Shown in pieces: positions 365-64,000 of a DNA stretch of 64,000 nucleotides. The notes beneath the pieces are model-generated. The model did no database searches and had not been told where the DNA came from. It saw nothing but the letters and a program-made list of their open reading frames with translations. The position numbers and the translations under genes are program-made. The number at the start of each line of letters is the position of its first letter. Position 1 is the first letter of the stretch. This stretch comes from Nereocystis luetkeana (taxonomy: Eukaryota > Sar > Phaeophyceae > Laminariales > Laminariaceae): contig JARUPZ010000005.1 of assembly GCA_031213475.1 (NCBI GenBank), forward strand, positions 10,239,260 through 10,303,259. Direction: 5' to 3'.

Positions 365-477
365 TTACCGTGGACCATAGTAAATAGGACCAGATATTGT
401 TAGTAAGAAGAGGTAAATATATACCCTGGTAGGTTTTTGTGTGTACCGTAGGTCCTGTGCACTATGGTCCCCCGAAA
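365..477. repeat. Family A MITE, copy 1 (family description)
   Basis: Family A is a ~105-bp nearly perfect palindrome: TTACGGGGGACCATAG at one end, its complement at the other, and an A/T-rich centre (ATATTTGGTCC, TATGTATACC). Good copies are flanked by TA on both sides, as for Tc1/mariner-type MITEs. There is no coding capacity. This copy has an internal TACCCTGGTA micro-insertion at 422. Confidence 0.85.
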
Positions 478-887
478 TGGTATGGGTACACCACTGGAAC
501 CGTTTTTCTGCTGGTTTTTGTTTTCCCCCCACTCTATTTCCACGTAGTGTGTAGTGTACGAGTGCCCATTTTGAGCCCAGCCCGTGACTAGCCAATCCAC
601 GTTGTACTATCCCCATTTTGGTCTTATCTTCATGTACCACACCAGGTATATACTAGAAAAAATAATCCTATGCTACCTCCAGGTATTTTTTTATCGTGCC
701 TGAACCGTTTTTTTCTGGTGTTGTCTCTGTTTTTGAGGCTCGTCTTTTACTGCTGAAAATGTTATATCATTCTGCTTCCAAGTATTTTTTGTCTCGTGAC
801 TTAAGCCGGTTTTACCGGTCTTATATACGTAATATAGCCTTGAACCTCAAACCGAATGGTCTTTAAATGGGTAAACTATTCATACTA

Positions 888-992: not shown

Positions 993-1559
993 TAGAGGCC
1001 TTTTCCCCGGATGGGCTTCAATTAAATGGGTACACACCACTGTTCAGCCAAAAGTGTCCCGCACTATTTTTTCAAGTAACGTGTCTCCTCTAATTGGTAG
1101 CTATAGAATAAAGCGGGTCGCGTGACAGTTTTGTTGCTTGCAAAAAACGTCCTACACTAATTTTAAGTAGTTTAGCCGCCCAAAAATGTAGTAGAGAGGG
1201 AAAAACGCGTGGATCAAAAATGGAATGACGGGTCATGAGCATTGTCACCAACTTGAAAGTAACCCGGCTGCGCAACTCCTCCCTCCCAACCCTCCCTCCT
1301 CCCCCCCCCCCCCCCCTCCTGTTATATACCAGGTATAAGTATAGGTTGGGTTGGCGTCGGTTGGCAACGACACTGCTGTAAAACGTGCCGCTCACTACGT
1401 GAGCTAGACAACCAGGATACGTTTTTTTTTCTTTTTTTTTTTGGCGGTCGCCCACAGCTGGTCGTCGAGTTACATCTTTTGTGCGAGGTGAAGAATCTTT
1501 ACTCCGCACAAGGGGGTTGATCGTATCACGTAGTGTTCATGGTATGGCTCCCAAAAAGC

Positions 1560-1878
1560 AGTTACGTACCTGGTACAGTAGTGCTCCTATTGCTGTCTCT
1601 GGATTTGGCTACACCGGAAATTAAATCGACTCATTGAAGCTGTCATCCATATGCAAGTCCGCCTCACAAGCGGCCCTTGGTAGGATACAGCTCACCCTTC
1701 ATGCGACTCGCCAGACACCTCACGGCGCTTCGCGCTTAATGCAAGCAATGTCTGGCTGGTCGGTGAAAACCCGACATGATCCGTCCGGCATTCTAAGAAT
1801 GCGAGGGTCTATGGTCATACGACTACGGCCATGCATTAGATCGAGTACATCTCTCCTATCGAGTACCCCCCCCCTTCT
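1560..1878 (+). repeat. Family C dispersed element, long copy (family description)
   Basis: Family C is up to ~450 bp. In this orientation it holds GATTTAATTC-type sequence, GCTGTCATCC, CACCCTTCATGCGACTCG, GGCGCTTCGCGC, GGTGAAAACCCGACATG, CCGGCATTGTAGGGATGCGA, GGGTCTATGGTCATACGACT, ACGGCCATGCATGA, GATCGAGTACATCTCTCC and TATCGAGTAC, then a poly(C) run. Short copies always keep the poly(C) end, as expected of elements made by reverse transcription (SINE-like), but I see no protein-coding partner or convincing pol III box. Confidence 0.8.
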
Positions 1879-2566: not shown

Positions 2567-8366
<5,800 letters not shown>

Positions 8367-8861: not shown

Positions 8862-9180
8862 ATGGGGATATTACGATACGGCGGTTTCGATACGATATCG
8901 ATAAGGTATCGATAGTTACAGGTGAAGATGTAAAATCGATACCTGGTACCGTATTGTGCATTTCGGGTGTTTGTGGTGGATATCGGAATCGCGTTCGATT
9001 TCGATACCATATCGATGCGATATCGGTGCAATACTCGTATCGATATTCAGGAGTGAAAATCTAAAATCGATGCCATTTTGGTATTTTGTGGTGGGTATCG
9101 GAATCGACTTCGATTTCAATACGATAGCGATAGGATATCGATCTTCATAAGTGAAAATATGAAATCGACACGATTTTGGT
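8862..9180 (+). repeat. ATCGAT-rich tandem repeat, block 1
   Basis: About 2.5 units of ~125 bp: GGTGGATATCGGAATCG, TTCGATTTCGATACCATATC, GTGAAAATCTAAAATCGATG. Dense in GATATC and ATCGAT. Confidence 0.75.
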
Positions 9181-10624: not shown

Positions 10625-11450
10625 AGGGCATGCGCTAGCACCCAACAAGGCGCACCTTATCACCCAGTACGAACGGCATACCAGGTATGCCTCATCCCCC
10701 CGTAAGGTATGCCTTACCTACCCAACAAGGAATGCCTTCTTACCCAGGAAAACATGCCTTCTTACCCAGGAAGACATGCCTTATTGCCCAATAAGGCATA
10801 CCTTATCTACCTAACAAAGCATGCCTTATCTGCCCAATATGGCGTGCCTGATCACATAAACAAGGCATGCCTCATCACCCAGTAAGGCATGCGATATCAC
10901 CCAATAAGGCATGCCTCATCACCCAATAGTACATGCCTCATCCCCTAATATGGTATGCCTTATCCCTCAATAATGCATGCCTGACCACCCAGCTAGGCAT
11001 GCCTTTCCACCCAATAAAGCAAGCCTTATCACCCAACAAGACATGTCTTGTCTCCCCAATGAAGCATGTGTTATCACCCATCAATGCATCCAATAAGGCA
11101 TGACCTACCACCCAACAATATGTGCCTCATCACCCACAAAAACATGCCTTGCCTACCCAATAAGGCATGCATTAAATTATCTACCCATAGATACCTGTCT
11201 TATCTCCCTCAAAGGTATGCGTAATCACCCAGTATTGCATGCTTATCATCCAATAAGACATGCTGCACCACCCAACAAAATGCATGCCTTATCTACCCAA
11301 TAACGCTTGCCTTATCACCCACTAAGGCGTGCTTCACCACCCAATAAGCCATATACCCTAATCACCCAATTGAGGTATGCCTCACCACCCAATAAGGCAT
11401 GTCCTAATCACCCAATTGAACTGCCTGGTCACCCAACCAGGCAAGCCTCA
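10625..11450 (+). repeat. Degenerate ~21-23-bp tandem array with GGCATGCC palindrome
   Basis: About 36 units of the type AAGGCATGCCTTATCACCCA, strongly diverged. No spacer/repeat pattern and no cas genes, so not CRISPR. Confidence 0.85.
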
Positions 11451-13155: not shown

Positions 13156-15500
13156 CAGTTTCTGGCTTCGTCTACACGGGCAGTATATAGTGCCTACCAC
13201 GTTTTAAACGATACCAGTTGATTGGTCTAATTCTGAAGTTTCGGGATGTTTTATTGGCCGACAAACACATATGTACACCCTGCTCCCGATTGGAACCTGT
13301 GATCCCACCCGGACCTGAGCCCTCCGAACCGGCCCTGGGTATTACCCAGTGATGCACTGCGGACTCTATCAGAAAAAACGCATGGTTTCCGTCCTTAAGT
13401 CCTCACTTCTCGTTGACCCCGGGCATGAATCTCGCCGGTTTCCCATTTTTTTCCTTCTGTCTTCTGATCCCTGGAGCCGGGGAATTGCTAGCAGAATATA
13501 ATCGTTCCGCGTCCGTCCGTCCGTCGGTCCTGTCTTCTCGTTGGCGTCAGGCATGACTCTACAGTAGCCGATTTTTCCTTTTTTCACGGGTGCCTTGTGA
13601 TTCCCCCGTCCTTCGGCCTAGAAAATAGGACCACATTTTCTGGTCGGGATTCAAAATTCCAACCCCCGCTTGGACGCTGGCGTGGAAATCAATCGTGGAT
13701 GATAGTATCGGCCAACTCGGTAAACATTCGTGGATAATAATATCATCGGCCAACTCGGCAAATACCATACCTGGTACGAGCAAAATGGCATCAGCTAGTT
13801 GCCGGTACAATGTCAAGGCCAAGTAACAGAGGGGTTTAGAGTTGATCACCCTCAGTCGAAACACCACCAGATCCCGGCATACATAGCAAGCGAACCCCCT
13901 GGAGCTATATATGCTGCAGCGACTCGGCGCCGAGGATCAAGGGCGCACCTGGCGGCTGGAGAGCCCCCCCTGAACCGACGATAGTTCATTGTCGGGCAGG
14001 GGGGGGGTTACAACGCAGGCCCGCCAATGGGGGGTCGCATACGCTGTTACCGGGCTTCGCCCGGAATGCCCGTTTTGCACCGACGATAGTTATGCGTCGG
14101 GCAGGGGGGGGTTGCTGCAGGGCGATGGGGCGATGTGGTTAATACTTGCTGTGAAACGTAGCGACTGTCGTGGTCAGTGTTTCCTGGAGGGTCTGCTGTC
14201 AGAGCAGAGGTCGAGCAGATCGATGCGCACCGCTAGAATCACCGAGTCTGGAGGATGAGGTTCCGACATCAGAACGCCATTGGTGCCTGTGGGAAGCCGA
14301 AGGCAAAATCTACCGTGACGCGGGCACCAACGCCTGGGTTTCAGTCAAAACTACCCGAAACATGAACGATCAAAGCCCAACCCCCATGCCCACTGTCGAA
14401 CGATATGTCCGTTGTCCACGTGTCCACCTGTCTGTGGATATCGCCAGCAACGCGCCTGCTTTTCGTTTACCAAGGCGTTGCTCGTCCAACATGGGAGCTG
14501 GCACGAGGCTCTCCCCTCCAAAAAAAACTCAAGAAAACCAGGTGAGTCCTCTAGTCGTCTCGGGGGCTGCCCGAGACCTCACGCTACTGTGACAGCTAAC
14601 ACAGGCTCAAACAAGAAAGTGCAGTGAAAGATATCCAAAATATTATCGGTGCTCAAAAATACATGCAGTCCTGTCATGGCGTGACACAGTCCAAGCGTGG
14701 GCACAGGTCCATGGTTCGCCCTGTGTATCGTGGCCCCCGGTCTATAAAACATGTGCTCCCGGCCGCGTGGGGGATAACTGCAAACCAATAAATAGCTGCC
14801 TCCGCTCAAAACAAGAGAGGTGTACCGACGAACAGTCAAATACCTGCCTCCGCGGTACATACAGTTCTTCCGACGAAAATGGTTGATACTGACCTCTGCG
14901 ACTCTTACAAATCTACCGACGTACCAGCCAATACATGCCTGCGCGACACACAAAGATCTGGTCAGTCGGTGAGTGCCTGCCTCCATGCTGGATGCAGGTC
15001 TACCGACAGATAGGCCTCCGCGCCATATACCGACGAAGAACAGTCCTCCGATGTTCATGCAGGATGGTGCGTAACAATAATGCTGGAAATAACAGTACAC
15101 GTCCTTTACGGAAAAGATACGATTCATACACGTGCTACTTTTACGCTTGCAGCAAAGGTAGTGGAAAGCTAGGTTTCATATGAGACAGAGAGCAGCGACT
15201 TCGACTTGCTACTGCTACAGACAGGCAACGTGCGCGCCCGAATTAGCACGAGCGAGAACAAAGGCAGAGGACCGAACCAAGCCCTCTCATAAAATATCGC
15301 TGACATGTACCACCAGGTAGGGAATGCCGATGTCTGAAAATACCGTTGGCATGCAATATCGTCTCGCCAACCCGAATTGAACTAATAGGATAATACTCGT
15401 ACCCGTTGACCTGAAATATCGTCTACCAACACGAGTTGTGCATGTACTGCGATACACAGCAGCACACCGAAAAATACCCCCATCAAATAAAAAATGGAGG
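13156..15500. other. Intergenic, no gene recognised
   Basis: Contains a small repeat (CGGCCAACTCGG at 13705 and 13752), GTCGGGCAGGGGGG at 13990 and 14095, and an open stretch 14170-14592 on the plus strand reading EAEGKIYRDAGTNAWVSV, which I cannot assign to a family. Confidence 0.45.
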
Positions 15501-24196: not shown

Positions 24197-24647
24197 GGGA
24201 CCCTGGTCGCCCATCGAGGCGGAAACATAGGGAAGTACGAGGCTTGTGAGCGAGGGGGGGGGGGGGGGGGGGTGAATGAAAGAGGCGAGGGAAAGCTCCT
24301 CGCGTTATGTATGTGCACGCCCCCCTCGTCTCGGTCGCTAGGGTGTGTGGGGGGGGGGTTATCGTCACAATCGTTCGTTTGCATCCCCCATTGCGAACTC
24401 TACCAACTGTGGTAGGTACGTCGAAGCTCCCATTACTAAATACCGCTACCGATGCTACTGCAGCAGCAGCAGCAGCAGCAGCAGTACAGTGCGGTCGGTA
24501 CGCGTACTGCTGCTATTAATACTCGACGCGCCCGGCAATGATACTCCTACAACAGACTACTGGCGCGACTTTATCACGGGGGGGGGGGGGGGGGGGGGTT
24601 CCTGATTGTTGGGCATGTTTTTTCGGGGTTCTCACTGCCATGCACTA

Positions 24648-24752
24648 TTACGGGGGACCATAGTTAATAGGACCTATGGTATACATAAAACCCTATATAT
24701 TTCAACAATTTTACTAACGATATTTGGTCCTATTAACTATGGTCCCCCGTAA
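24648..24752. repeat. Family A MITE, copy 8
   Basis: Clean copy with TA on both sides. Confidence 0.92.
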
Positions 24753-24769
24753 TACCATGCCCCCCCTCC

Positions 24770-24860
24770 CCCTCCCCCCCCCGCGGGGGTGCGAGGGTCT
24801 ATAGTCATACAACTACGGCCATAAATGATGCTACAGTAAGTACACTCCCTTCCCCCCATC
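24770..24860 (+). repeat. Family C, short diverged copy
   Basis: GTGCGAGGGTCTATAGTCAT, ACAACTACGGCCATAAATGA. Confidence 0.7.
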
Positions 24861-50200: not shown

Positions 50201-53200
50201 CCTAGTACTCGTGCTCGTTGAGGGTCTGGTGTCTTTCAGATCGCTTCGCCGGCGCACCACGCGTCCAACACTGGGCTCGTAGCCTGGAGCCAAGTCCAAC
50301 ACCCTTCACAAAAGTACCCCACGTTTTGTGTCAGGCGATCTGCATGGTAACCACCATCCTGACGTCCCACGACCGTACCTCCTCTCTTCTTGCCTCGCTG
50401 CTGTACTGGCTACTACTTTCCTTGCGGGAGGGACGGTTTTTTTTCCGTGCAAGCTTCAATCAAGGACGGCTTGCATAACACGAAGCCTTACCCACACATC
50501 GGGATACCCCGCACGTCATACGGCTTAGACACGTCAGCGGCATACAGGGCAACGAATACGGTCGTGGGTCGCCAGGATGGTGGTTACCATGCCCATCGCC
50601 CGACACAAACGTGGGGTACTTGTGTGAAGGGTGTTGAACTTGGCTTCAGGCTACGGGTCTGTTTTTGGAGACACAACTTGGAGCCGGGGTGGGGCTAGGC
50701 CAGGGTGGAGCGAGGTGGGGTGCGTCAACAAACAGCAACAACAACAACAACGCATCAACACCAACACCAACAGCAACACCAACACCAGCTAGGGCAACAA
50801 CACCATCACCACAACGGCAAACCAATAACACATTAGCATCCACGACACCAACATCAACATCACCACCAACGTTGATGATACCACCACCACCAGAAGAACC
50901 ACCCCATCGAAACCAGGAAGGCAACGCACGGACACGCACCATGGCCGCTCCCGAAACGTCCCTCTCCCCCCCCCCCCCCTCCCTCCCTCCCTCCCTCCCT
51001 CCCTCCCTCTCTCCCTCCGCTCCCACCTGATCTCCTTGCCCTCAGCATTGCGGTTGACCTTCCCATCCAAGGCAGGTGATTTCCGCGCCTCGGCGTGGCC
51101 ATAGTCGGGGCCGACGGTGTAAACCTTTCATTGGGCAAAAACGAACGGAACGATGGGAACGATTGAAAAAAAAGAAAAGAAGACCAGTCCCCTGTAGCAC
51201 GAGCGGGGGATTCGAGCATCACACGAAGCTTGGAAATTTGGACTTAATCCTTGCACATGATCATTGATTTTGAAAAAAACATACCCATTTACATCAATAT
51301 TACATTACAGAAAGCAGCGCACACGGCTCGGTGGCGTTGCGGGCGTGAAACGTCTGCGACTGGCTGGGAAAAAAAACCCCATCGAATCCAAAAAAAAATA
51401 AAAATAAATAAAGGGACTGAAAGAAATGAGCCTCACAATATAAGCAAGGAATACGATAGTGTTGGACGGTAGTCCCGTAGCTTGTGCGGCGCAAACCGCA
51501 GGCTGGGGGGTTAACAACGAAAAATCATCTCGGAGCAACCCTCCCGAGGAGACTGCTGTGGGTGGCCTCGAAGAGTTCCAGTGATATGATAGTGCGTCGG
51601 TACGACTGAGTACGGAATAGGACCCGGTACCCCACCATACGAGTACTGATATTATTCGTACGAGGCGTAAACACCAGCGTGAAAAAGGAGACAAAGTTAC
51701 TGGGACATTGACAAGTACCTGGTACCAAACATAGCACATACACGAGCACGGCCAAAAACACAGAGGAGAGGGTGGGAGCAAGGAAGACAGCTTGCCAGTG
51801 ACCCCGGCTTGCCGTCGAGGGTAAAAAAACCGGGAGGCAAAAGCGAGCCTGAGGCCGACAACTACGGGATCGGAAAGCCAGGAAACACTACAGCTTTTGT
51901 GTTTCTTTCACCCGTCATCGCGCAGAAGCCCCGCGAGCAGCGCCGTCGGTATGGTGATGGGTCAACGTTTCGTATACTATTGCGGGGGACCAAAGTTAAT
52001 ACCTGGTAGGACCCATGGTGCACACAAAAACCTATACGTTTAACTATTTTTAAAAACAAGATTTGGTCCCTTATGTACTATGCTCCCCCGTAATATCTAC
52101 CCACAAAAACAAAAACAAAAACAAAACAAAGAAAGTGTTGAAAATAAAAACTTCGAAAAAAGTGTTTTTCGCACATAGTATACTGCCGTAGCACCAAACG
52201 CCGCCACGAGCGCTCTTCGCCTCGCAGAGCACGGATCGGATCGCATTGAAACTTCCACGGACGGTATGCTCCTTTGCTCTTCTTGATAATCAATCCTCCT
52301 TGCCAAGTTTGAGGGGCCGTAGGCGGAGGAGTCGCTTAGAGACGTATGTGAGACCAAGACCCATTTCCGTGAGAGAACACAAAAAAAAAAAAACTTTTTT
52401 TTTTCTTCTCTGGTCGAAAATGGCCTCGGCTTCTCTGTAGGAAACGGCTGATGCGGAAGCGGATCAGGCTCACCACGCCCCAAGCGAAGCTTCCTGACGC
52501 AGACCACTTACATATGTACGGCCCTCGAACTTGCCGCCGACGACTCTTCGCTCAGGGAGATCTCTCGGTGGTCGACGGTTACAGTGCCGTGTACAAAAAA
52601 ACACGTATTTTTAGTACAGAAGAAAACTAGTTTTTTTTTTTGCCGATCCCACATCTGTCTGCCGTGAAAAAAAAAACAAAAAACAATACTTCGAAGTATG
52701 GGTTTTACCGCCACAAAGGTGGACCCCTGTTTAGTTTTTTTCAGTTTGTGCCGATCCCACAATTGTCGGTCTTGAAAAAAAAAACGAAAACAACAACAAT
52801 GGAACCATGATTTAGCGACTATTCACAAGGTACCCGGGTGACACACCTCCGGTAAATTGAGAGATACCCGGTACATCCAGAGCGTATACCCGACTAAACA
52901 CACACCCTCCGAGTGTTCCTGCTGATATGTCGGCACACCATCACCCCTCCTGCGGAGGACCATACACAGCACGCGACAACAGTCGAGAACCTCCTACTAC
53001 GGGGGACCATAGATAATAGGACTAAAATACTGTTAGTAAAAATGGCGAAGTATATAGGCGTTTGTATGTACCGTAGGTCCTATTTACTATGGTCCCCCGT
53101 AATGATATATATGTTGGCTAAGGCTCGCGGCTTATTTTGACACCAAACGACGAGCCTGTGCAAATATCTGCCATTGTGTAGGGCTCAGAGTGCCATACCT

Positions 53201-56600: not shown

Positions 56601-59600
56601 AAAGAAAAAAAAAAAGAAGCTCACCCGTCCCTGCTGACGTAGACGTTTTTCGGCGTGGGCACCTTGAGCTCCTTCAGCAGATCGTACACCTGAAAGCCGG
56701 CGAAAACAGCGACATCAGTGACTAAAAGAGAGAACCGGTCCGATCGCCGGCCCGCAGACCGGTCCGGGGACCGCTCCCCAGACAGGAAGTAGTGCACAGC
56801 GGTCAGCCCCTCGGGTGAACCATCATCGGCTGTGTGCATGTCTGGCAGGCGCGTTTGTGTGGCTTCGACATTTTTTTCGACAGGGCAAACGTCCCGAACA
56901 GATGATCGGTTTACCGACATCACGATCTAGATACCGATCCGCCTTTCAAGGCAAATATATACCAATCTGGCCCTTATTCTAAGTTTCATTTGTGTACCAA
57001 CAGTGAAACAAAAAGTTCCTTACATTTAGGAACAGAGTGGTATATTTTAATGCTGCTCGGTACTAGCACTGACGAAAATGGTACCCAAAAATATACACCA
57101 GGTACGAAGTATATTTACAAAACTGCGAATAGTACCAGGTATGAATGAAGTACGTACACACCGGAAATAAATCGGCCACCCGTGACAAGCTACGTACGCG
57201 CAACCTCGAAATACATTATTTTTATTTCCCGAACATGGAGCCACCCACTCCTCGAACTCTGCAGCGCTAGCTTCAGATTTTGTCTTCCTCGTGTACGGAC
57301 TGTACTTCCTCCATGAGACCATGTAAACCCCGTGGTAAGCGCGATTGAAGCATCACGCATACAGCTTGCGAAACAGGAGTTTCGATAAAATCCTCGACAT
57401 CGCAGCTATTGTTTTGATGTTTTTATTTTTATTTATATTTATATTTTTATCGCCCGGCGGATTGGTAAAATACATTTCCCCCCCCGAATATACGGGCATA
57501 CCCGGTAAATATTTTATTTTTTCATTTTTTTATGTCATCCGGGGGATTGGTATATATATATACTTTTTTTGTAAAAATATATAAAAATATGCCCGACCTG
57601 GTAAGCATGGTCTACAGCAGCAGCTCATGTTTCCATACTTCCGGGTGGATCATAGTGTTCAGGACCCATTGTACATAATAAAATATGTACATTACGGTAT
57701 TTTTACTAAGCATTTTTGGTCCTGGTTGTTAGGTTCCTTCGTAATACAGTAGCGCGTGTTTTCTGGGGCTGGATCTGTACAATGGGCAGATCCCGCACAA
57801 TCTCTATAAGAACGGCAGATGAGGAACTGAATGATTCGCTGTAGATAGATCAGATAGATCATGATCTATCTACTTGTCCGAGGGGTATGTATAGGTGCAC
57901 AAAAAGTCAGCGAAAACTCTCTCCTGGGACTTGATTTCGAAGGGGAACAGGAACGATAAAGCGCCACGACGCGGACCAACCGCCGAGATGGGCAGGGTGA
58001 CTCGTGCGCTGAGTCAACCAAAAGCTGGGGAGACTATCGAGAGGTGTTCTCGCGGGGATCAACTCCCACACTACCCCCGAGGAGGGAGAGAGAACACTAG
58101 ACTCGGGTGCCTCGTACATCCTCGGAGTAAACCATCCGTTCGACGGCAACCACAGAGAGGCCCGACCAAAAAAATGGAAGAAACGATGCGGGTTCGAACC
58201 GGTACACAAAAAAACTGGAGACGTAGGTGTGGGCAAAGAATTTCCTCACGCCCTCCGGGGTACAAGGCGAAAAAAAAAGTGAGACGTTACAGAGGACAGA
58301 GGACGGCCACCGCGAACTTGGGGGGGTGATACTGATAGTAGTTTCCGAGTGGCGCCTCTAGGCTCTAGGACTCGAGCGGCAAGGGTGTGGCATGGTCCTG
58401 CCGGTACTGGCTGGGCACACGCCGTGCTCCTAGGCCGCTGTTATAACACCGAAGTTGTCTCTCGTGTCGGTCGCTAGCTCGGCGTCGCCAAGGGGCTCAA
58501 ATATGGCGCGCCTTCGTCACCCCACTGGATGAAAGCAGGTCGTGAACGTTCGGCCGACTCACGGACCTGCGGGTTGCCGGTTCTCGCGGTAGACTAGTAC
58601 GTACTGTCTCGACAGTAGTAGACTACAACGTACTGTCTCCTACTGCTGTATAAGTGTGTGCCGCTCTCGCCGGTTAAAATACTGAAGGACCAGCCACCTC
58701 ACAGCCCGACCGTTTGCCTCCACAGTAGGCTCCTACTGTATACGGGTATACTGCTCTCGTCAGTAGACTACTGTACGTACATACTCAAGAGAGCGTGTCG
58801 AATTTGGAGGCAGACAGGGTTCTCGACAGTGCACTATTGCTCTACCGTAAGCGGGCATACCGCTCTCGTCAGTAGACTACTGTGCGTATTTACTCGAGAG
58901 AGCGTGTAATATTCAGAGGAAGCCTCGCGTGCACCATCTGAGAACGTACATACGGTTCTCGACAGTAGCGACAGTAGACTACTACTGTGAACCTGGCATA
59001 CCGCTCTCGTCAGTAGACTACTTCTGTACGTGTACACTCAGGGGAGCGTGGAATATTCAGAGGAAGCCCTGCGCGCACTATCTGAAACTGTACATACGGT
59101 TCTCGACAGTAGCGGCAGTAGATTACTAATGTACACGGATACACCGCTCTCGTCAGTAAGCTACTGTTGTACGTATACACTTTAGGGAGCATGTTACATT
59201 CAGAGGATGCCTCGCGTGCACCATCTGAAACTGTATATACGGTTTTCGACAGTAGCGACAGTCGACTACTAATGTACACGGGTATACCGCTCTCGTCAGT
59301 AGACTTCTGTACGTATACACTCAAGAGAGCGTGTAATATTCAGAGTAAGCCTCGCGTACACCATATGAAAACTGTACATACCGTTCTCGACTGTTATACG
59401 GGTATACCGCTCTCGTCAGTAGACTACTTCTGTACGTATACACTCAAGATAGCGTGTAATATTCAGAGGAAGCCTCGCGTGCACCATCTGAGAACGTACA
59501 TACCGCTCTCCACAGTAGCGACAGTAGACTACTACTGTGAACCTGGCATACCGCTGTCGTCAGTAAACTACTGTATACACTGTTCTCGTCAGTAGACTTT

Positions 59601-62541
59601 GTACTGCACGTATGTATTCAAGTTAATGAGTCATATTCATAGGCAGCCTCGCGTGCATCATCTAAAACTGTATATATACTCTTCTCGGCGGTAGACTACT
59701 GTGTACACTCGGAGAGTGTGTCATATTGTCACAGGATTGGGCAAAAATGGCGGGAACAGTTACGCAGACCCCGTCACGCCTCACAGGCATACTCCGCCGC
59801 ACGTGCACCACAGAACAGCGCAAACAGTCATAAGTTTTTTGTGTGCGAGTATCACTGCACGCACGTATAATACGCCCCCCCCCCCCCCTCCCCCCGTTAC
59901 CCCATTAAAAAACGCCTCCCCGCCGCCACCCTCACGCCAAGAACAAAACTGAACACCCCCCCACACACACCTAGCTCCCATCCCATCGAACAAACTAGAC
60001 ACCTACCCCCTCATACGGCTACGGCCATGCATGAGACCGAGTACACCCCTCTTATCGAGTGCACCCCCCCCTCGCCCCCCACCTCCCCCCATACAAAAAC
60101 CGAACGCACGCCCCTCTCGCACCCTCCATCGATTGTTCAAGGCCTCCTCCATCTTCTAAAGTTGGACGCACTAACTATCAATACCTCACCCCCGCTCCCC
60201 CTCACAAAACAAAAACTACCTCCCCCCCTTCTAGCAATGCCTGCCTAAACCCGACGTGCTCCGTCCCGGAATTTTAGGGATGCGAGGGTCTATAGTCATA
60301 CGACTACGTCCATGAATGATAAAGAGTACACCCCCACACACACACCCTTTCCGCCTCGAATGGGACTCGTGGTCAATGGCCAAATGACTAAAGCAAGTAA
60401 CAAACGAGTGCCTTCCCCCCCCTCCTTTTCCCTCCCTCACCCCCGCCCCTCATCCCATACAAAAACCGAAGCAAGCGCATCCTTCGTCCCCTTACCCTCC
60501 GTCGATCGCGCAAGACCTCCAGCTCTTAAAGCTGGACACACAGCCTTCGCACCCCCACCCCCCGTCGAAAAACAAACAAACTACCCCCTATGGTCGTACG
60601 AACACGGCCATGCATGTTATGAGTACACCCCCCCCCCCCCCCCCCCCCCCCCTCCCTCACCGCCTCCCATCCCACACAAAAACCGGACACCCCCTGGTCA
60701 TACGACTACGGCCATGCATGATATCGAGTAGTACCTCCCCCCTCCCTCCTCCCCTCCGTCGTCTATGGTCACACGACTACGGCCATGCACGGCACGAGTA
60801 CACCCCACCCCCCACCCCCCGTCCCTCACCCTCCGTCGATCGTGCAAAACCTCCTCCATCTGCAGGCTGTTGAGCTCGTAAGGTCTCCTGAGCGCGATGT
60901 ACGACCTCGCCTTGGCCGCGGGGAAGCCGGTGGAGAAGAACGCGATGATGCAGTCGCACATCGGCCAGTCCTCCACAGGGTCTTCGAGGATGCACTTGTC
61001 TCCGAACACGATCACCTACGATAGCAATACGAGGCATATATGTATATATCAGTACTAGGTATAAAATACCTGGTAATAAGAATCACAACAGCAAAAATGT
61101 GGGATGGGACCCGACGACGCCAAATATGGGACGGTAGATACTTCAAAGTAGTCCCGCAGCAAGCTATTATTACCTGGTGTATATTTCTGTGTAATCTCAG
61201 AGTGCCCCCCACCCCCCTGCTTCCCAAGAGGAGCCAGGATGGTACGATCCATATATTTTAGTTTTTTTTTTCTTTCTTAACCCTTTTAGAACCGCAGTCC
61301 CGTGTTGGGGACAAACCACTCAAATTTCAAGTAGTTTGTCCCCAAAACGGGACTGCGGTTCCAAAGGGGTCAATCGTCACTTTTACTTCCCAGCGAAACT
61401 CGTACGGCAGGAGGTTTCGACCCTAAGCGGTCTTCTTCTGGACAAGCCACCGTGGTCACAGGTGTCGTGCCTTCTCCCCCCCGGTGCGCGCCTTTATTTT
61501 TTGTCGCGCATAGGGTTCAGCATTCCCACTGCTCGTCGATTTTCATCGAATGTTTACAGCACGATGGACACAGACTCCAGTTCGTCTGCCACACGCCGCG
61601 TCGAGGTGGGCTCCCTAATCGTAAAAAAAGTCATGTTGGTTAACGTCCCGTGTGGGGAGGCATCTTGTCAAAAAAAAAAAAACTCGGGTAAGAATGTTAC
61701 GAACGGGTTTCCTGCATTTTGAGTACGCAGGCGTTTCGGTTCAGGGGCACCAGTTTTCATGATCGAGTCACGCCACGGTAAGGGTTGCACTTTTTGGGCC
61801 AAAGGTTTCTGACGGACTGAGTTCACCAAGTGAAGAACCAGCTGTTAGGATGAAAGTTTTACTCGTGTATTCGTTTTAGGACTAGCGCATACAAGTGCCG
61901 GTCGGGTGGCGCGAACAAATTTCCTTCCAAGTATGGTATCGGGTGAGATATTGAGCTCCTAAGATGAGGGGCTTAGGAACTTCTGGTGCACCCTTACCGT
62001 GGGGTGGCTCGATCATGTTTGTGTTTCCATCGTCACAGGAGAAGAAAAAGGGGCAGCCGCGAAAGATAAAAAAAAAATGTCCCACAGTAGAGTACCCTCG
62101 CACTAGTGCTACGGCTACGGCAACTGCTGCCGCTACTGCTGCCGCTACTGCTGCCGCTACTGCTACTGCTGTTGGTGGTGGCGGGCTTGCTGTACTCACC
62201 TGCCGTACAGGTAACACAACATACTACACTCCACGCCAGCAGCAGCCGCCTACACCCCCGTCAACTTCCCTCGGGCTTACTCAAAGCCACCCACACACAC
62301 ACACCTCGAACTTCCGTGGAATACCGCTACCGGCATACCCTGGAACTCTCGTGGAATACGGCCCCGTACGATAGCATACCTTGAACTTCCGTGGGTTTAG
62401 CCTGGAGGTGATGGCCACCATGTGCTTCGACAACGCCTTCTTTTCCCTAGCGCAAACCCCTACCGTTATGTGCCCGTCCGCGCGCACCAGCGTCCCCCGC
62501 CACTGGGCCTTCTGCCCGTTCCATCCCTTTCCCTCGGTCAT
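25552..62541 (-). CDS. VIP1: VIP1/PPIP5K: bifunctional inositol hexakisphosphate / diphosphoinositol-pentakisphosphate kinase-phosphatase (21 exons)
   Basis: Complement of join 25552-25716, 26967-27087, 28325-28480, 29123-29311, 30705-30767, 31759-31898, 33602-34322, 34942-35157, 35820-36227, 37437-37501, 40251-40333, 41375-41530, 45740-45912, 48161-48316, 51027-51124, 53537-53641, 55374-55493, 56108-56165, 56625-56689, 60830-61015, 62380-62541. All introns are GT-AG, phases agree, and the CDS is 3606 nt (1201 aa), a normal size for the family. In known members the ATP-grasp domain phosphorylates InsP6 and 5-InsP7 at position 1, and the phosphatase-like domain removes that group, linking phosphate and energy state to signalling. 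Seen: VGVCA start of the kinase fold, [20 protein letters not shown] (about 165-184), [10 protein letters not shown] metal-binding strand (304-313), RHGDR (398-402), [33 protein letters not shown] (about 1088-1098) and the SFSPG tail. Least certain points: the start Met (an acceptor-like CAG lies about 18 bp upstream), the 5' edge of exon 13, the 3' edge of exon 9, and whether exon 18 is constitutive. Confidence 0.93.
25742..25831 (+). repeat. (AAC)n array
   Basis: About 28 AAC units just upstream (VIP1 sense) of the last VIP1 exon. Confidence 0.97.
25855..26335 (+). repeat. 131-bp tandem array
   Basis: Three diverged units with TTGGCGCACGAGA and TTCATTCACTCATCGCCCGA (26063 and 26194). Confidence 0.85.
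26530..26950 (+). repeat. Degenerate 22-25-bp array
   Basis: Repeats of CAGACAAAATTGGCCAACC and AGAATCGG, highly diverged. Confidence 0.75.
26967..27087 (-). CDS. VIP1: VIP1 exon 20
   Basis: One base completes Arg, then [40 protein letters not shown]. Matches human [23 protein letters not shown]. Acceptor TCGCAG; donor GTCTGG is a weak but usable GT site. Confidence 0.92.
27654..27757. repeat. Family A MITE, copy 9
   Basis: In a VIP1 intron; terminus TTGCGGGGGGGC. Confidence 0.88.
28155..28235 (+). repeat. 11-bp tandem array
   Basis: About six units of GGAGCTGGGTA. Confidence 0.92.
28325..28480 (-). CDS. VIP1: VIP1 exon 19 (SESH motif)
   Basis: One base, then [51 protein letters not shown] and two bases. 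[22 protein letters not shown] is the second phosphatase signature; its His is predicted residue 1098. Donor GTATTC. Confidence 0.95.
28613..28724. repeat. Family A MITE, copy 10
   Basis: Carries TACCCTGGTA at 28702 in its right arm; a family B copy begins a few bases further on. Confidence 0.88.
28730..28920. repeat. Family B MITE with A-rich internal expansion
   Basis: Arms GACTGCAGTCTCGTTTTGGG and CCAGAACGGGACTGCAGG are separated by ~130 bp of A-rich direct repeats of CCCTTTCAGGG. Confidence 0.75.
29123..29311 (-). CDS. VIP1: VIP1 exon 18 (probable cassette exon)
   Basis: Open segment with acceptor TACAG and donor GTGAGC whose length (189 nt) and phases fit exactly between exons 17 and 19: [32 protein letters not shown] and a Ser/Gly-rich tail. 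Animal VIP1 has nothing here; plants have a variable charged insertion at the same place. Exons 17 and 19 also join in frame without it, so it may be alternative. Confidence 0.6.
30705..30767 (-). CDS. VIP1: VIP1 exon 17
   Basis: One base completes Arg, then [20 protein letters not shown] and two bases of Leu. Corresponds to human [21 protein letters not shown]. Acceptor CCCAG, donor GTAAGC. Confidence 0.93.
30800..31020 (+). repeat. GC-rich pentamer/decamer region
   Basis: GATGCGATGGGATGTGATG-type and CCAGTCCGGTTCAGTCCGGT-type short repeats. Confidence 0.7.
31759..31898 (-). CDS. VIP1: VIP1 exon 16
   Basis: 46 codons plus two bases: [46 protein letters not shown]. Matches human IPDIYDCIKYD...LYRLSKALADIVIPQEYGI. 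Acceptor CGCCAG, donor GTAGGA. Confidence 0.96.
32218..32665 (-). repeat. Family C, longest copy
   Basis: Poly(G), GTACTCGATAGGAGAAATGT through GACAGCTTCACTGAGTCGAT and TTCCAGAGACAGCAGTGGGA to GGATCCGAGTTGCGATCAGG. It gives the best view of the full element. Confidence 0.9.
32704..32791 (+). repeat. (AAC)n array
   Basis: About 28 AAC units; GTT on the VIP1 strand. Confidence 0.97.
33130..33400 (+). repeat. (ACC/AAC)n array
   Basis: 270 bp of CACCAACACCAACAC with CATCAC interruptions, in the VIP1 intron before exon 16. Confidence 0.96.
33602..34322 (-). CDS. VIP1: VIP1 exon 15 (large Ala/Pro-rich insertion)
   Basis: One base completes Cys, then 240 codons. The first 68 ([20 protein letters not shown]... 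[20 protein letters not shown]) match the human LIKNPVKTCDKVYSLIQSL helix region. The last 28 ([28 protein letters not shown]) match LELMLRRWSKLEKDF..YDISK. Between them lie about 145 residues of Ala runs, Pro/Ser runs and Gly, absent from animal and plant VIP1. Donor GTGAGG. Confidence 0.93.
34638..34748. repeat. Family A MITE, copy 11
   Basis: Contains TATTAATA near 34673 where sister copies have a single TA. Confidence 0.88.
34942..35157 (-). CDS. VIP1: VIP1 exon 14
   Basis: One base completes Ser, then [56 protein letters not shown] and DIKRDMDR. Almost identical to human [24 protein letters not shown]. The acceptor CGCCAG lies just downstream, on this strand, of the poly(C) end of a family C element. 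Donor GTGCGT. Confidence 0.95.
35168..35445 (-). repeat. Family C, long copy next to VIP1 exon 14 acceptor
   Basis: Its poly(C) end, on the coding strand of VIP1, lies 10-45 bp upstream of the exon 14 acceptor at 35158. Confidence 0.85.
35820..36227 (-). CDS. VIP1: VIP1 exon 13 (LKWGGELT; acidic and Gln-rich insertion)
   Basis: The conserved end reads [43 protein letters not shown], as in human [23 protein letters not shown]. Before it lies HLPFKPSPW (compare plant QLKPLKW), a Gln run, and an acidic run of Asp/Glu. The 5' edge at 36227 is the AG that fits the required phase and follows a pyrimidine-rich stretch; it could be shorter by up to about 40 codons. Donor GTGAGA. Confidence 0.8.
36368..36445 (+). 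repeat. (CCCTA)n array
   Basis: About 14 units of CCCTA in a VIP1 intron (TAGGG on the coding strand). Confidence 0.95.
37120..37415 (+). repeat. Dispersed repeat E, second copy
   Basis: CTGTATGATCTAGTTCATGT, ATGCACAGATCCTGCACCAT; carries TACCTGGTA (37169) and TATTAATA (about 37327). Confidence 0.65.
37437..37501 (-). CDS. VIP1: VIP1 exon 12
   Basis: [20 protein letters not shown] then T and two bases of Arg/Ser. KLRQIEHVL matches KLEQLKTVL of PPIP5K. Acceptor TGTGCAG, with a 20-bp poly(C) run 25 bp upstream on this strand; donor GTGAGT. Confidence 0.9.
37653..37750. repeat. Family B MITE
   Basis: Begins TTAACCCCTTTAGAACCGCA; well preserved. Confidence 0.92.
37820..37900 (-). repeat. Family C, short copy
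   Basis: Poly(G), GTACTCGATAGGAGAGATGT, CATGCACGGCCGTAGTAGTA. Confidence 0.82.
38070..38160. repeat. Family B-like element, diverged subfamily
   Basis: GGGGTGCAGTCCCGTTTTGC...TCGTTCCC. The same diverged form recurs at 38310-38400. Confidence 0.55.
38205..38338 (+). repeat. 67-bp tandem duplication
   Basis: AACACCCTCTCGGGTCTTGA to AGGGGTGCAGCCCCGTT occurs twice without differences I could see. Confidence 0.93.
38310..38400. repeat. Family B-like element, diverged subfamily
   Basis: Sister of the copy at 38070; its left end lies inside a 67-bp tandem duplication. Confidence 0.55.
38611..38722. repeat. Family A MITE, copy 12
   Basis: Right arm interrupted by TACCTGGTA at 38694. Confidence 0.9.
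38786..38890. repeat. Family A MITE, copy 13
   Basis: Only 63 bp from copy 12 and in the other orientation of the centre; flanked by TA. Confidence 0.9.
39444..39530 (+). repeat. Family C, short copy
   Basis: CTATGGTCATACGACTACGG to CGAGTACACACAC and poly(C). Confidence 0.85.
39945..40035 (+). repeat. Family D element
   Basis: CTCGAAAGGGATGCGTGGTC to AATAAGTACCCCCC. Confidence 0.8.
40251..40333 (-). CDS. VIP1: VIP1 exon 11
   Basis: Two bases complete Asp, then [27 protein letters not shown]. Corresponds to the human [21 protein letters not shown] helix. Acceptor CAAG, donor GTGAGT. Confidence 0.9.
40684..40815. repeat. Family B MITE, rearranged
   Basis: Left arm CCCTTTTAGAACTGCAGG, then two right-arm-like segments, suggesting internal duplication. 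Confidence 0.65.
40840..40925 (+). repeat. 13-bp tandem array
   Basis: Six units of GACGCACCAGCCA. Confidence 0.92.
41375..41530 (-). CDS. VIP1: VIP1 exon 10 (phosphatase RHGDR motif)
   Basis: Two bases complete Gly, then [63 protein letters not shown] is the diagnostic histidine-acid-phosphatase motif of VIP1 proteins, with catalytic His at predicted residue 399. Acceptor TGTGTAG, donor GTGAGA. Confidence 0.97.
42190..42390 (+). repeat. Family C, mid-length copy
   Basis: CACCCTTCATGCGGCTCG to a 32-bp poly(C) run. Confidence 0.85.
42436..42566 (+). repeat. Dispersed repeat H, first copy
   Basis: GTCACAGGTGTC, then ATCGCGCATAGGGTTCAGCA and GCTCGTCGATTTTCATCGAA. Also at 61450-61557. Confidence 0.7.
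42573..42677. repeat. Family A MITE, copy 14
   Basis: Directly followed by copies 15 and 16. Confidence 0.9.
42681..42898. repeat. Family A MITE, copy 15 (outer, interrupted)
   Basis: The outer copy is split by copy 16 after CCTA; its right half resumes at about 42834. Confidence 0.85.
42729..42833. repeat. Family A MITE, copy 16 (nested in copy 15)
   Basis: Complete copy inserted at a TA inside copy 15. Confidence 0.88.
43425..43620 (+). repeat. Dispersed repeat G, second copy
   Basis: GACGGGGTCTCTCAACCC, GAGCCATGGGAATGTTCATC, TCAGTTTTCGGGTGGGATAT. A weaker relative lies at about 61900-61980. Confidence 0.65.
43862..44265 (+). repeat. CAA/ACC/CAG triplet arrays
   Basis: (ACC)n and (AAC)n at 43900-43990 and (CAG/CAA)n at 44145-44260. 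They give long Gln or Asn frames on the plus strand, but these are intronic repeats opposite VIP1. Confidence 0.93.
44340..44495 (+). repeat. (ACC/AAC)n array
   Basis: CACCAACACCAACACC with CATC interruptions. Confidence 0.93.
44645..44750 (-). repeat. Family C, short diverged copy
   Basis: Poly(G) then GTCGTACGACGATAGACC, TTGCCGGGACGGGGCATGTC. Confidence 0.75.
45225..45720 (-). repeat. Minisatellite, four ~140-bp units
   Basis: Each unit has a ~50-bp core, on the minus strand like GTCCTCATCGGCGAACACAT and CATAGCGGTGGTCTTCAACA, followed by GTGGGG repeats. Cores start (plus) near 45227, 45365, 45510 and 45661. Directly follows VIP1 exon 9. Confidence 0.75.
45740..45912 (-). CDS. VIP1: VIP1 exon 9 (end of kinase domain, linker)
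   Basis: One base completes Lys, then [64 protein letters not shown] matches YYDDCAKILGN of human PPIP5K. The 3' edge is inferred: the donor GTGGCA at 45739 is the one that gives the phase required by exon 10. The following GTGG-rich repeat offers other donors. Confidence 0.75.
46040..46485 (+). repeat. AAGAACAAGATAAC array
   Basis: About 30 units of 12-15 bp, purine-rich. Confidence 0.93.
46990..47395 (+). repeat. GAATAAAT-type array
   Basis: Degenerate tetramer/octamer repeats of GAAT and AAAT; contains TACTTCGTA and TACCCTTGGTA at 47323-47345. Confidence 0.9.
47583..47676. repeat. Family B MITE (first copy of tandem duplication)
   Basis: Arms CGCAGTCCCGTTTTGGGGAC and GTCCCCAAAACAGGACTGCA. 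Confidence 0.88.
47833..47926. repeat. Family B MITE (second copy of tandem duplication)
   Basis: Same as the copy 250 bp upstream; arose by segmental duplication, not transposition. Confidence 0.88.
48161..48316 (-). CDS. VIP1: VIP1 exon 8 (metal-binding strand)
   Basis: One base completes Arg, then [42 protein letters not shown] and two bases of Lys. Carries the Asp and Asn that bind Mg-ATP in the family. Acceptor TTGCAG lies after a CCCTAACCC/poly(C) stretch on this strand. Donor GTGAGG. Confidence 0.96.
48398..48715 (-). repeat. Family C, long copy upstream of VIP1 exon 8
   Basis: Poly(G), GTACTCGATCTCATGCATGG to TTCCAGAGACAGCAATGGGT. Its poly(C) end faces the exon 8 acceptor at 48317, about 80 bp away. 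Confidence 0.85.
49443..49540. repeat. Family B MITE
   Basis: Near-consensus copy, TGACCCC...GGGTTAA. Confidence 0.92.
49932..50036. repeat. Family A MITE, copy 17
   Basis: Clean termini, flanked by TA. Confidence 0.9.
50255..50672. repeat. Foldback element with ~115-bp arms
   Basis: Left arm about 50262-50378 (AGCCAAGTCCAACACCCTTC, GGTAACCACCATCCTGACGT); right arm about 50556-50665 is its reverse complement with some changes. Loop ~180 bp with no open frame of note. No related copy in the window. Confidence 0.85.
51027..51124 (-). CDS. VIP1: VIP1 exon 7
   Basis: [32 protein letters not shown] and two bases of Arg. Nearly identical to animal and plant VIP1. Acceptor GAAAG, donor GTGGGA; a run of GGGAGG repeats follows the donor in the intron. 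Confidence 0.96.
51980..52093. repeat. Family A MITE, copy 18
   Basis: Left arm interrupted by TACCTGGTA at 52000. Confidence 0.88.
52997..53102. repeat. Family A MITE, copy 19
   Basis: Termini CTACGGGGGACC and GGTCCCCCGTAA. Confidence 0.9.
53537..53641 (-). CDS. VIP1: VIP1 exon 6
   Basis: 35 codons, phase 0: [30 protein letters not shown]. Matches human IGSRSSVYSPE...GSYIYEEFMPTDGTDVK. Acceptor GGCCAG, donor GTAAGG. Confidence 0.96.
53660..53692 (+). repeat. (CA)n(CG)n run
   Basis: ACACACACACACACACGCGC and GCGCGCGC, 20 bp upstream (VIP1 sense) of exon 6. Confidence 0.93.
54245..54294. repeat. Family B MITE, solo half
   Basis: Only the left arm is present (TTAACCCTTCTGCAG, then CAGTCCCGTTTTGGGGACAA). 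Confidence 0.75.
54750..54960 (+). repeat. ~45-bp array of CCCTAA-like units with AGCCAATCAG
   Basis: CCCTAACCCTGACCC, AAGCCAATCAGACCA and variants, five units. Confidence 0.88.
55374..55493 (-). CDS. VIP1: VIP1 exon 5
   Basis: 40 codons, phase 0 both sides: [40 protein letters not shown]. This is the most conserved nucleotide-binding block of the ATP-grasp domain. Donor GTGAGC. Confidence 0.97.
56108..56165 (-). CDS. VIP1: VIP1 exon 4 (short linker)
   Basis: 58-nt exon: one base completes Gly, then [19 protein letters not shown]. It fills the gap between RD and HKPFVEKP where other VIP1 proteins have an acidic E-D-x-x-x-V strand. Acceptor GGCAG, donor GTATAT; both phases fit. Confidence 0.85.
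56625..56689 (-). CDS. VIP1: VIP1 exon 3
   Basis: [20 protein letters not shown] then D and two bases of Gly. Corresponds to the human [21 protein letters not shown] segment. Acceptor TTTCAG, donor GTGAGC. Confidence 0.93.
57265..57420 (+). repeat. Dispersed repeat F, second copy
   Basis: CATGAGACCATG, GCGCGATTGAAGCATCACGC, AGGAGTTTCGATAAAATCCT. Confidence 0.5.
57637..57744. repeat. Family A MITE, copy 20 (decayed)
   Basis: Recognisable by GGACC...ATGTACATTACGGTATTTTT and TTTGGTCC; many changes, probably old. Confidence 0.6.
57755..57895 (+). repeat. Dispersed repeat E, third copy (partial)
   Basis: GGGCTGGATCTGTACAATGG, CAGATCCCGCACAATCTCT, GATAGATCAGATAGATCATG. Confidence 0.6.
58590..59720 (+). 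repeat. ~110-150-bp satellite in VIP1 intron 2
   Basis: About eight units with CTCTCGTCAGTAGACTACTG, ACTCAAGAGAGCGTG, TATTCAGAGGAAGCCTCGCG and CACCATCTGAGAACGTACAT. Units vary in length by internal loss. Confidence 0.9.
60008..60075 (+). repeat. Family C, terminal fragment
   Basis: CATACGGCTACGGCCATGCA, CTTATCGAGTGCAC and C-rich run. Confidence 0.8.
60253..60355 (+). repeat. Family C, short copy
   Basis: ACGTGCTCCGTCCCGGAATT, GGGTCTATAGTCATACGACT, GAGTACAC. Confidence 0.8.
60350..60425 (+). repeat. Family D element
   Basis: CTCGAATGGGACTCGTGGTC to AACGAGTGCC and C-rich run. Confidence 0.78.
60588..60655 (+). repeat. Family C, terminal fragment
   Basis: TATGGTCGTACGAACACGGC, ATGAGTACAC and poly(C). 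Confidence 0.78.
60692..60745 (+). repeat. Family C, terminal fragment
   Basis: GGTCATACGACTACGGCCAT and ATCGAGTAGTACC. Confidence 0.78.
60760..60830 (+). repeat. Family C, terminal fragment abutting VIP1 exon 2 donor
   Basis: CTATGGTCACACGACTACGG, CACGAGTACACC, C-rich run reaching the donor site of exon 2. Confidence 0.75.
60830..61015 (-). CDS. VIP1: VIP1 exon 2
   Basis: 62 codons, phase 0 on both sides. [31 protein letters not shown] and [11 protein letters not shown] align well with the human segment VVVFEEEVILNEPVENWP...CDCLISFHSKGFP. Donor GTGAGG at 60829. A short family C copy in opposite orientation abuts the donor. Confidence 0.95.
61277..61373. repeat. Family B MITE
   Basis: Near-consensus copy in VIP1 intron 1. 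Confidence 0.92.
61450..61557 (+). repeat. Dispersed repeat H, second copy
   Basis: Same blocks as 42436: GTCGCGCATAGGGTTCAGCA, GCTCGTCGATTTTCATCGAA. Confidence 0.7.
62105..62178 (+). repeat. 12-bp array (ACTGCTGCCGCT)
   Basis: About six units, 200 bp downstream of the exon 1 donor in VIP1 intron 1. Confidence 0.88.
62380..62541 (-). CDS. VIP1: VIP1 exon 1 (candidate start)
   Basis: 54 codons from ATG at 62541: [10 protein letters not shown]..., then [18 protein letters not shown], the first strand of the kinase N-domain (human PPIP5K has VVGICAMSKKSKSKPM). Donor GTATGC at 62379, phase 0. The frame is open upstream to another ATG at 62595, and a CAG near 62560 could be an acceptor, so a further 5' exon is possible. 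Confidence 0.8.
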
Positions 62542-64000
62542 CCGTCTGTCCGCACCTGACAGGCCATGATAACAGACGCCAGGTAGTAAAAACAAACGAA
62601 CGTTCGTAGATGAAAAAAAACAACACGAACTTACGATATACGAAGTCTAAAGCCATGCGAGGTGTTGACCAAATGGATCAATGGTCACATATTACAGTAT
62701 TTTTTTTTAATAGTAGATCAATCTACGAGTATCAAGACCACAAAAACAAGCTGCCCGCAAGCAAAACGAGCCGGCGCGCATACAAAACAAGCCAGCGCGC
62801 TGTACGATCAGCCATACGCGCCAAGTACTGCCCGTTGCTCTTGCTGCTGGGCGGCAGGGTTGTAGTGCCGTAGGCAGTTGGGGGTAAGCACGCTCTGTGC
62901 GCTGCTGCTTTTGTGTCTGGGCTGTGGGCTGTGCTCCGTGCAAAAAACACGAAAACACGTATCAGTACGTCAGCCTGGGTACGTACGTATGAAAACAAAC
63001 AAGGCCTCGTGCTCAAACCCCCGGGAAATCGTTTTATCTAGCCCCGCCGAAAAAAAAAACTTTGAGGGATTGCCACGCGCTCCAGAGTGCACGGGCGAAC
63101 TCGACCATTGTGTCCGGTTGGGCTTCCCGTGTCGACTACTTGGTGTTTTGCCCAAACGTGCTCGAACGAAGAGATATGTTCGAAAAAGTACGAACATTTC
63201 ACAAACATAACTACACGTATCAATGCACTGAATACAGGGTATGCAAGGGCTCCGCATGGTAGCAGCTCGACTTGTTCGACAGAGAACGAACAAGAACACT
63301 TCGTACGCACACGGAAAACTAATCCTCTTGTACTTTGTAAAGTAATGCCGATAATTTAGTGTAGCTACGGGGGTCCATAGTTAGTAGGACCTATGGTATA
63401 CATAAAAACCTACCAGGTACCTGGTATATATTTTACCATTTTTACTAACAAGATTTGGTCCTATTAACTGTGGTCCCCCGTACTAAACCGTCTACGCTAC
63501 TAATGGAATTGCTGTCTACGTAATTTCTTACGCGAATCCGGTGCCGAGCTTCAGATTTCGGTCGGATCATCAACCGAAACAACTACGAGCGGCATGGCGG
63601 CATGTATGTATGTGTACATTGTACCTGGTACCGGTTGAGATAGACGTGTGACTCGGAATAGCCTTCTTGTGTTCGCAAATTCCGAGCCCACGCCGACTGG
63701 CCCTCTTGTCCCGTCACGGAGAGACGTGTCGACTGCCTTTAAAGTGGTAAGTCGACTCAATCAAGCATCCGGGGCTATAGCGGGCTGGCTGACTGCTGAC
63801 TGCTTTTCGCTGCATGTTTTCCACCTATTAATAGCCTTAGAGAGTAGCCGTCTCCGTCTCCTCTTGCTAGGTCCGAGCCTCGCAAGCCGATTGGATGTAG
63901 TCAGAGCACAGGGAGACGAGCTGATGGCCTGACGCCTTTGTCGTTCAGCTCTTCGGTTGTTAGCATACTGCTTGCTGCTTTCTGCTGCTGTTGTATTATA
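62542..64000. other. Upstream flank of VIP1
   Basis: Presumed promoter and 5' UTR side of VIP1. Contains family A copy 21, TACCTGGTA at 63622, and a 94-codon plus-strand open frame (63648-63932) of no known family. No core promoter motif could be assigned. Confidence 0.4.
63365..63483. repeat. Family A MITE, copy 21
   Basis: Upstream of VIP1. Carries two tandem micro-insertions (63411-63426) at one TA. Confidence 0.9.

Follow-up and report, generated by a model that had tools for sequence, protein, structure and literature searches.

The window, the whole stretch of 64,000 nucleotides that was analysed, holds 23 copies of the word TACCWGGTA, each exactly where the first-pass annotation had placed it, against an expectation of 0.40 (sd 0.60); none of 100 dinucleotide-preserving shuffles reached 23. 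Several copies lie within family A, an inverted-repeat MITE of about 110 bp that is flanked by TA and has TTACGGGGG at its ends (a word found directly after TA in 28 of its 33 places). Three variants of the form TACCCTGGTA, at 422, 28702, and 49042 (minus-strand coordinates 431, 28711, and 49051), were likewise present as annotated. An Rfam search gave no match, nor did a Pfam scan of ten ORFs of the window. The features are as follows (footprints are putative; the extent of each family A copy with an insert is that of one alignment; a dot denotes no strand).

361..482, minus: family A MITE copy with the 6-nt variant TACCCTGGTA at 422 (alignment)
1327..1335, dot: TACCAGGTA footprint (exact word); a gappy 68.7% alignment to L025:3309 has TACCTGG in common
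1567..1575, dot: TACCTGGTA footprint in a high-copy repeat, mostly absent from other copies
5241..5249, dot: TACCAGGTA footprint (exact word)
6523..6641, minus: family A MITE copy with TACCTGGTA at 6584-6592 (exact word and alignment)
6988..7105, minus: family A MITE copy with TACCAGGTA at 7052-7060 (28 clean-empty alignments)
8940..8948, dot: TACCTGGTA footprint (exact word)
10679..10687, dot: TACCAGGTA footprint on the margin of a tandem-repeat array (exact word)
13768..13776, dot: TACCTGGTA footprint (exact word)
24601..24800, plus: empty family A copy within the stretch, the query for the copy set (alignment)
25213..25228, dot: two abutting footprints TACCTGGTACCAGGTA with 7-bp spacing (exact words)
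28614..28728, plus: family A MITE copy whose 6-nt variant TACCCTGGTA at 28702 occupies a third TA (alignment)
34674..34681, dot: TATTAATA (TATTAA inserted at TA) in a family A copy (alignment)
37169..37177, dot: TACCTGGTA footprint (exact word)
37571..37579, dot: TACCAGGTA footprint (exact word)
38609..38722, minus: family A MITE copy with TACCTGGTA at 38694-38702 (alignments)
47014..47022, dot: TACCTGGTA footprint adjoining an array of AATGAATA (exact word)
48717..48725, dot: TACCTGGTA footprint (exact word)
49007..49015, dot: TACCTGGTA footprint in a TA-rich tract (exact word)
49042..49051, dot: 6-nt variant TACCCTGGTA (word search)
51716..51724, dot: TACCTGGTA footprint (exact word)
51980..52095, plus: family A MITE copy with TACCTGGTA at 52000-52008 (alignments)
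57133..57141, dot: TACCAGGTA footprint (exact word)
61067..61075, dot: TACCTGGTA footprint (exact word)
63366..63485, plus: family A MITE copy with the double footprint TACCAGGTACCTGGTA (14-bp insertion) at 63411-63426 (alignment)
63622..63630, dot: TACCTGGTA footprint (exact word)

The excess extends to the whole assembly (465,085,209 bases in 1,987 contigs). The genome-wide count, which by the first-pass annotation would have spoken against its proposal had it lain at background, was 182,395, against 1,744 for a control word of the same letters written backwards; the spacing is one per 2.55 kb. Sample DNA of 330 kb, the window included, contains 125 copies at an uneven density (0 to 9 per 10-kb piece), with A as the central base on the strand read in 52 and T in 73; a fresh 60-kb sample contains 27 copies and none of the control word. 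Among TA-N5-TA words in 270 kb, TACCWGGTA occurs 98 times where an order-3 Markov model predicts 2.4, and the next word 18 times. Two other words are mildly enriched in 270 kb, TACGAGTA (42 against 16.5) and TACAGTA (90 against 54). Microsatellites of the TAC/CTA type (TACTACTA and TACTCCTA) are very abundant in the genome sample, for example in L022 near 3925-4200, and a degenerate CCCTAA-like array (a telomere-like unit) lies inside the contig at window positions 54762-54957.

Insertion at TA and Target Preference

According to the first-pass annotation, the word results when 7 bp, CCWGG and a second TA, are inserted at TA, an account supported by alignments of paralogues, by a catalogue of indels, and by a palindromic target preference. 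For 92 sites, the flanks were joined with a single TA, and filled and empty versions were aligned to the sample sequence. Paralogues were found for 23 sites, the other 69 having none in the sample; for 15 of the 23, the paralogues include one or more clean (gap-free) empty copies. The alignments comprise 142 clean-empty, 112 gappy empty, 4 clean-filled, and 20 gappy filled cases and 19 ties, totals that do not count independent loci. Site 38694 contributes 29 clean-empty alignments (the best at 94.7% identity) and 1 clean-filled, site 52000 contributes 25 and 1, and site 1567 contributes 9 empty alignments (all gappy), 1 gappy filled, and 2 ties.

At 38694 and 52000, the contrast between filled and empty copies that had been described earlier holds: the inserts are (TACCAGG)TA and (TACCTGG)TA, and the consensus of 36 family A copies (out of 40 places found, shorter ones being excluded) is without them. 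Inserts occur in 7 of the 36 copies, at three different TAs of the one repeat, two of the three places being mirror positions in the two arms; they are of the TACCWGG type, of 8 bp (TACCAGGG or TACCCTGG), or, in one case, a 14-bp double. Two further copies, in L016 and L025, have the insert at the second of these places according to pairwise alignment. Because the consensus has no insert at any of the three places and two of these are mirrored in the arms, parsimony makes the empty state ancestral.

The catalogue took in every indel of 3-14 bp between paralogues, and TACCWGGTA was not named as input. It lists 909 indels, 164 of them with a duplication of TA; 19 of 58 7-bp indels have the duplication, 14 of these being TACCWGGTA, as do 7 of 10 14-bp indels, 4 of these being double scars. 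The leading words with TA duplication are TACTA and TACGACTA (17 each), which we read as microsatellite-like or tied to one family, followed by TACCWGGTA (14) and TATTAATA (12). What is inserted is CCWGGTA, into a pre-existing TA that is thereby duplicated.

The left and right sides of TACCWGGTA sites agree in their preference. Across 250 half-sites, A or T stands at -7 in 85% (background at TA, 48%) and A at -6 in 53% (23%), and T at -1 is rarer than background (6%, compared with 17%); with half-sites adjoining another scar excluded (14 of 190), the values are 86%, 52%, and 7%. The preference is weaker, yet present, in 52 fresh half-sites from the 60-kb sample, where 40 have A or T at -7, 24 have A at -6, and 3 have T at -1 (77%, 46%, and 6%). 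Judging from the sequence, such a palindromic preference in the flanks is the signature of a transposase, not a functional motif. Among 125 sites there are also 8 pairs of scars that abut at a spacing of exactly 7 bp. The scar itself supplies a TA whose neighbours (C at +1, T at +6, A at +7) fit the preference as a half-site, which would explain such pairs; in the pair at 25213..25228, the second footprint is taken to have arisen at one of the TAs of the first. In one high-copy repeat, a family A element appears to lie in one copy (L003, ~826-935) and a CCWGG scar in another (L012:7563), judging from the flanks at the same TA, which appears to be a hot spot common to two systems.

A Second Palindrome, Variants, and Decay

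A second TA-bounded palindrome, TATTAATA, is over-represented (93,112 against 10,689 genome-wide; 77 flank-distinct copies in 330 kb), and in the window it occurs at 22694, 23761, 24514, 25062, 25101, 34674, 36676, 37328, 39024, 46749, and 63826. Its flanks agree in preference with those of family A ends, and both differ from those of CCWGG sites: T at -3, A at -2, and C at -1 have frequencies of.65,.65, and.59 at family A ends (n = 49; L003 offers a clean insertion at TA) and of.56,.58, and.49 at TATTAATA half-sites (n = 154). On account of this common target preference, TATTAATA is best read as a putative excision scar of family A, in which a 3-nt TTA overhang on both sides would pair over TA and be filled in to give TA-TTAA-TA. 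By the same logic, CCWGG would have been left by a different TA-targeting element that uses a transposase of its own, and TA-targeting transposons of this genome seem, on excision, to leave terminal bases with a TA on either side. The reading of TACCWGGTA as an excision footprint, already proposed in the first-pass annotation, is supported and gains further strength from the target preference of TATTAATA and family A, which that annotation had not used.

Further words may belong to the same class. TACTTCGAAGTA, possibly a third type of scar (TA-CTTCGAAG-TA), occurs four times in 330 kb (window 25504 and 52687, L021:5938, and L023:9133), and another copy in L063 adjoins a CCAGGG scar within a family A copy. 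TACTCSGAGTA, likewise bounded by TAs and nearly palindromic, with an ambiguous central base, has 13 flank-distinct copies in 330 kb.

Decayed relatives of TACCWGGTA had been suspected from the start and are real as an excess: in 330 kb, words with one mismatch (the centre excluded) exceed the Markov expectation by ~59, compared with 125 exact words, or about 6% per site. Some 16 of the 59 are supplied by CACCAGGTA, perhaps a variant of the scar instead of a product of decay, and without it the excess is ~42. It would appear that the scars are inherited and decaying and that their ages differ widely. Variants of 6-7 nt (CCAGGG 10, CCTGGTG 6, and CCTGGCA 4 in 270 kb; CCAGGG 1 and CCTGGTG 0 in the fresh 60 kb) are not all accounted for by a simple pairing model. 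Words with S at the centre (TACCSGGTA) are in excess as well, at 12 against 2.3 expected in 330 kb; in their 22 half-sites from 270 kb the preference at -7 is not strong, and some of these words may therefore be of another nature. TACCWGGTGTA is enriched in the genome (5,219 against 240) and resembles what we take to be the end of Mos1 (CCAGGTGTAC), but it was rejected as the end of an element: its relatives in the sample, compared by BLAST and by eye, diverge beyond it, and since they have no sequence in common further on, it looks like a scar variant.

Search for a Parent Element

TACCWGG without TA next occurs 91 times in 264 kb. Extension by BLAST of 89 sites from 294 kb (leaving out those with TA or GTA next and those too close to a locus end) yielded no repeat beginning at TACCWGG. 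Ten boundary words after TA were found in 330 kb, namely two of family A, four scar words, and four others (GTAATAGTAAA, CAGCAGTGTGC, CTACTACTGCA, and TATATATATAC), none of the last being an element with a CCWGG end; the only boundary words starting with CCWGG were scars. A looser boundary count is headed by family A (TTACGG, 247), with several other words besides, and words starting with CC reach 8 at most (CCTGGT 3). TIR pairs of the form TACC..GGTA in 264 kb, and those from TACC(A/T)G in 330 kb (513 pairs), were not above control start words. Among 193 repeats split by insertion in 355 kb, none has CCWG ends on both sides, and the 9 with CCWG at one side are all ordinary TACCWGGTA.

At the family A hot spot, TAAAAACCTACCWGGV, which picks out junctions where T does not follow, has 127 matches in the genome against 1 for its control, and TAAAAACCTACCWGNTB has 34 against 0; ordinary scars at this hot spot number 2 in the sample. 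Twenty of the first 100 matches listed for TAAAAACCTACCWGGV were inspected, 16 picked as atypical and 4 as typical. By eye, family A resumes within ~20 bp in 17, which are scars, double scars, and decayed scars; 2 leave family A after an apparent decayed scar, and 1 (L048/L065), whose upstream sequence is without family A, looks like a chance match. No element was found among these 20 of the 127. By the rule of three (0 against 125), resident copies number at most ~1 per 40 scars, a bound limited by what pieces of 5-64 kb show.

Transposase families were sought in the genome as well. PF13358 has no match; PF01359 has none either, nor has it any in 14 control genomes, and it is hence little informative. 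PF03184 (the pogo-like DDE_1) has 28 matches, the best at 3.4e-28, and no ends fitting CCWGG were found at the two loci examined. Two inverted, equal-scoring DDE_1 matches ~2.4 kb apart lie at G000:C34:4445281-4448513. A Pfam scan of 76 of 296 filtered ORFs gave a reverse-transcriptase RNase H in one ORF as its sole match; ten of these ORFs, scanned again at E up to 1, gave weak matches, including an integrase-like PF00665 (L010, E 0.0037). This integrase-like stretch has 529 relatives; the best named among the matches listed is from Ectocarpus sp. CCAP 1310/34 (65% identity), and the 120 listed include four named ones, each from that strain, which points to a brown alga as the source of the DNA.

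Excision Model and Known Systems

We consider TACCWGGTA, with a probability of about 0.84, to represent the accumulated excision footprints of a TA-inserting, Tc1/mariner-like cut-and-paste transposon with CCWG(G) ends. A full-length element with such ends would insert at TA and duplicate it; at excision, its transposase would cleave the outer strand 4-5 nt in from either end, so that the flanks keep 3' overhangs of CCWG or CCWGG, which would pair save for a central A:A or T:T, and repair would fix A or T to give TA-CC(A/T)GG-TA. With ends CCAG/CCTG and a 4-nt overhang, pairing would extend over three bases with A:A or T:T at the centre; with ends CCAGG/CCTGG and a 5-nt overhang, over five. 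Both yield CC(A/T)GG and, having the same product, are not separable here. The CC(W)GG termini and 5-nt overhangs posited in the first-pass annotation are putative, as no element with such termini was found in the sample. Pairing with a central mismatch underlies the Sleeping Beauty footprint, TAC(A/T)GTA. The scars, neutral and heritable, would have piled up to ~182,000 exact copies, and the parent element would now be rare, extinct, or not recognised. Modest but lasting activity would suffice, since for neutral scars the substitutions per generation should equal the excisions per haploid genome per generation.

A bolder form of the excision model, which we regard as doubtful, is that insertions are so reliably removed (by a very active transposase or a programmed purge in the life cycle), and with one stereotyped repair outcome, that the transposon is nearly all scar, having put a uniform, frame-shifting 7-bp insertion into the heritable genome at intervals of ~2.5 kb. 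Scars would perhaps exceed resident copies by >100:1, of which the sample bounds only ~40:1, and several systems (CCWGG, TTAA, perhaps CTCSGAG and CTTCGAAG) would act in parallel.

Scars accompanied by no resident element in 294-355 kb would also fit a programmed elimination, in which the parents reside in a germline or other life-cycle genome and are excised in development in the manner of ciliate IESs, leaving CCWGG scars in an assembly that is the processed form. This is improbable: one-mismatch forms are in excess (~59, compared with 125 exact words), the scars vary among paralogues as old inherited insertions do, and the TA-flanked MITE family A, still resident in this genome in many copies, seems to leave an analogous TTAA scar; to our knowledge, brown algae have no germline/soma split. 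Quite unlikely, too, is an abortive micro-transposition that inserts 7 bp directly (two tips joined, or a minimal CCWGG unit), with never a full element. The failure to find a full element in 294-355 kb and the 8 abutting pairs among 125 sites speak for it, but those pairs are accounted for by the matching half-site of the scar itself, TATTAATA indicates an ordinary excision route in this very genome, and we know of no transposase that integrates 5 bp.

The high abundance and near-palindromy of TACCWGGTA might instead suggest a functional motif under selection (a binding site, origin, or nucleosome or recombination signal). Against this, which we hold very improbable, the word is an insertion into TA at differing places in repeats, the preference sits in its flanks, and its decayed forms are in excess. 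Least credible is that it belongs to one abundant repeat family and is copied along with it, for although several scars lie within family A copies, the sample offers no paralogue for 69 of the 92 sites, flanking sequences differ in the window, and most family A copies are without the TACCWGG insert.

Excision footprints are usually observed singly, in assays. If the excision reading is true, one class of sequence logs ~182,000 past jumps in one genome, together with the target site of each jump, the base (A or T) set by repair, and the decay since; this would provide a dated log of transposon activity and dense, near-irreversible phylogenetic markers, and the ends of a lost transposon could be inferred from its scars. 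At one invariant 7-bp word per ~2.5 kb, repair would then have added ~1.3 Mb in total. Such scars may also be mistaken for regulatory motifs by motif finders.

A literature search found no account of this scar phenomenon, which does not itself prove absence; the 9-mer occurs in 109 papers, and among the 20 of these that were listed there was no transposon title. Ciliate IESs are, like the sites described here, TA-bounded and very numerous, but their excision leaves a single TA and no CCWGG scar. PiggyBac has in common with these sites a short palindromic A+T target; it was rejected, because it targets TTAA and leaves no footprint (parts of PMC7351741), whereas here the target is TA and the scar 7 bp. 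In Ectocarpus, also a brown alga, Mariner-Tc1 comprises 17 families and 11,912 copies, the most among the classified DNA transposons tabulated, and consists mostly of non-autonomous MITEs, which family A likewise resembles; the main text of that account has no words beginning with footprint or excision (PMC12477816). Footprints differ by cell type, and non-canonical ones occur, according to parts of PMC3770610.

The closest likeness is to the Tc1/mariner group (IS630; Sleeping Beauty, ZB, and Minos), which targets TA, duplicates it, and keeps a few terminal bases between the TAs. TACCWGGTA sites display the insertion at TA with its duplication and the palindromic preference around it, as ZB does with an A+T-rich target (PMC7913693, in part), and family A is a TA-flanked inverted-repeat element inserted at TA. 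The footprint matches in form, as terminal bases between two TAs, but retains five bases (six or seven in variants), whereas the sources give 2-4 bp for Tc1/mariner excision (PMC7913693) and 0-4 bp among relatives (PMC7913693 and PMC9976928), lengths that we read as not counting the TA. Unlike in those relatives, the preference extends here to +/-7, one footprint is present in ~182,000 copies, and a resident element with TIRs ending in the footprint bases was not found in the 294-355 kb sample. Excision of the Tc1/mariner type is known; what differs here is a scar of five bases, its abundance, and the apparent lack of the element that made it.
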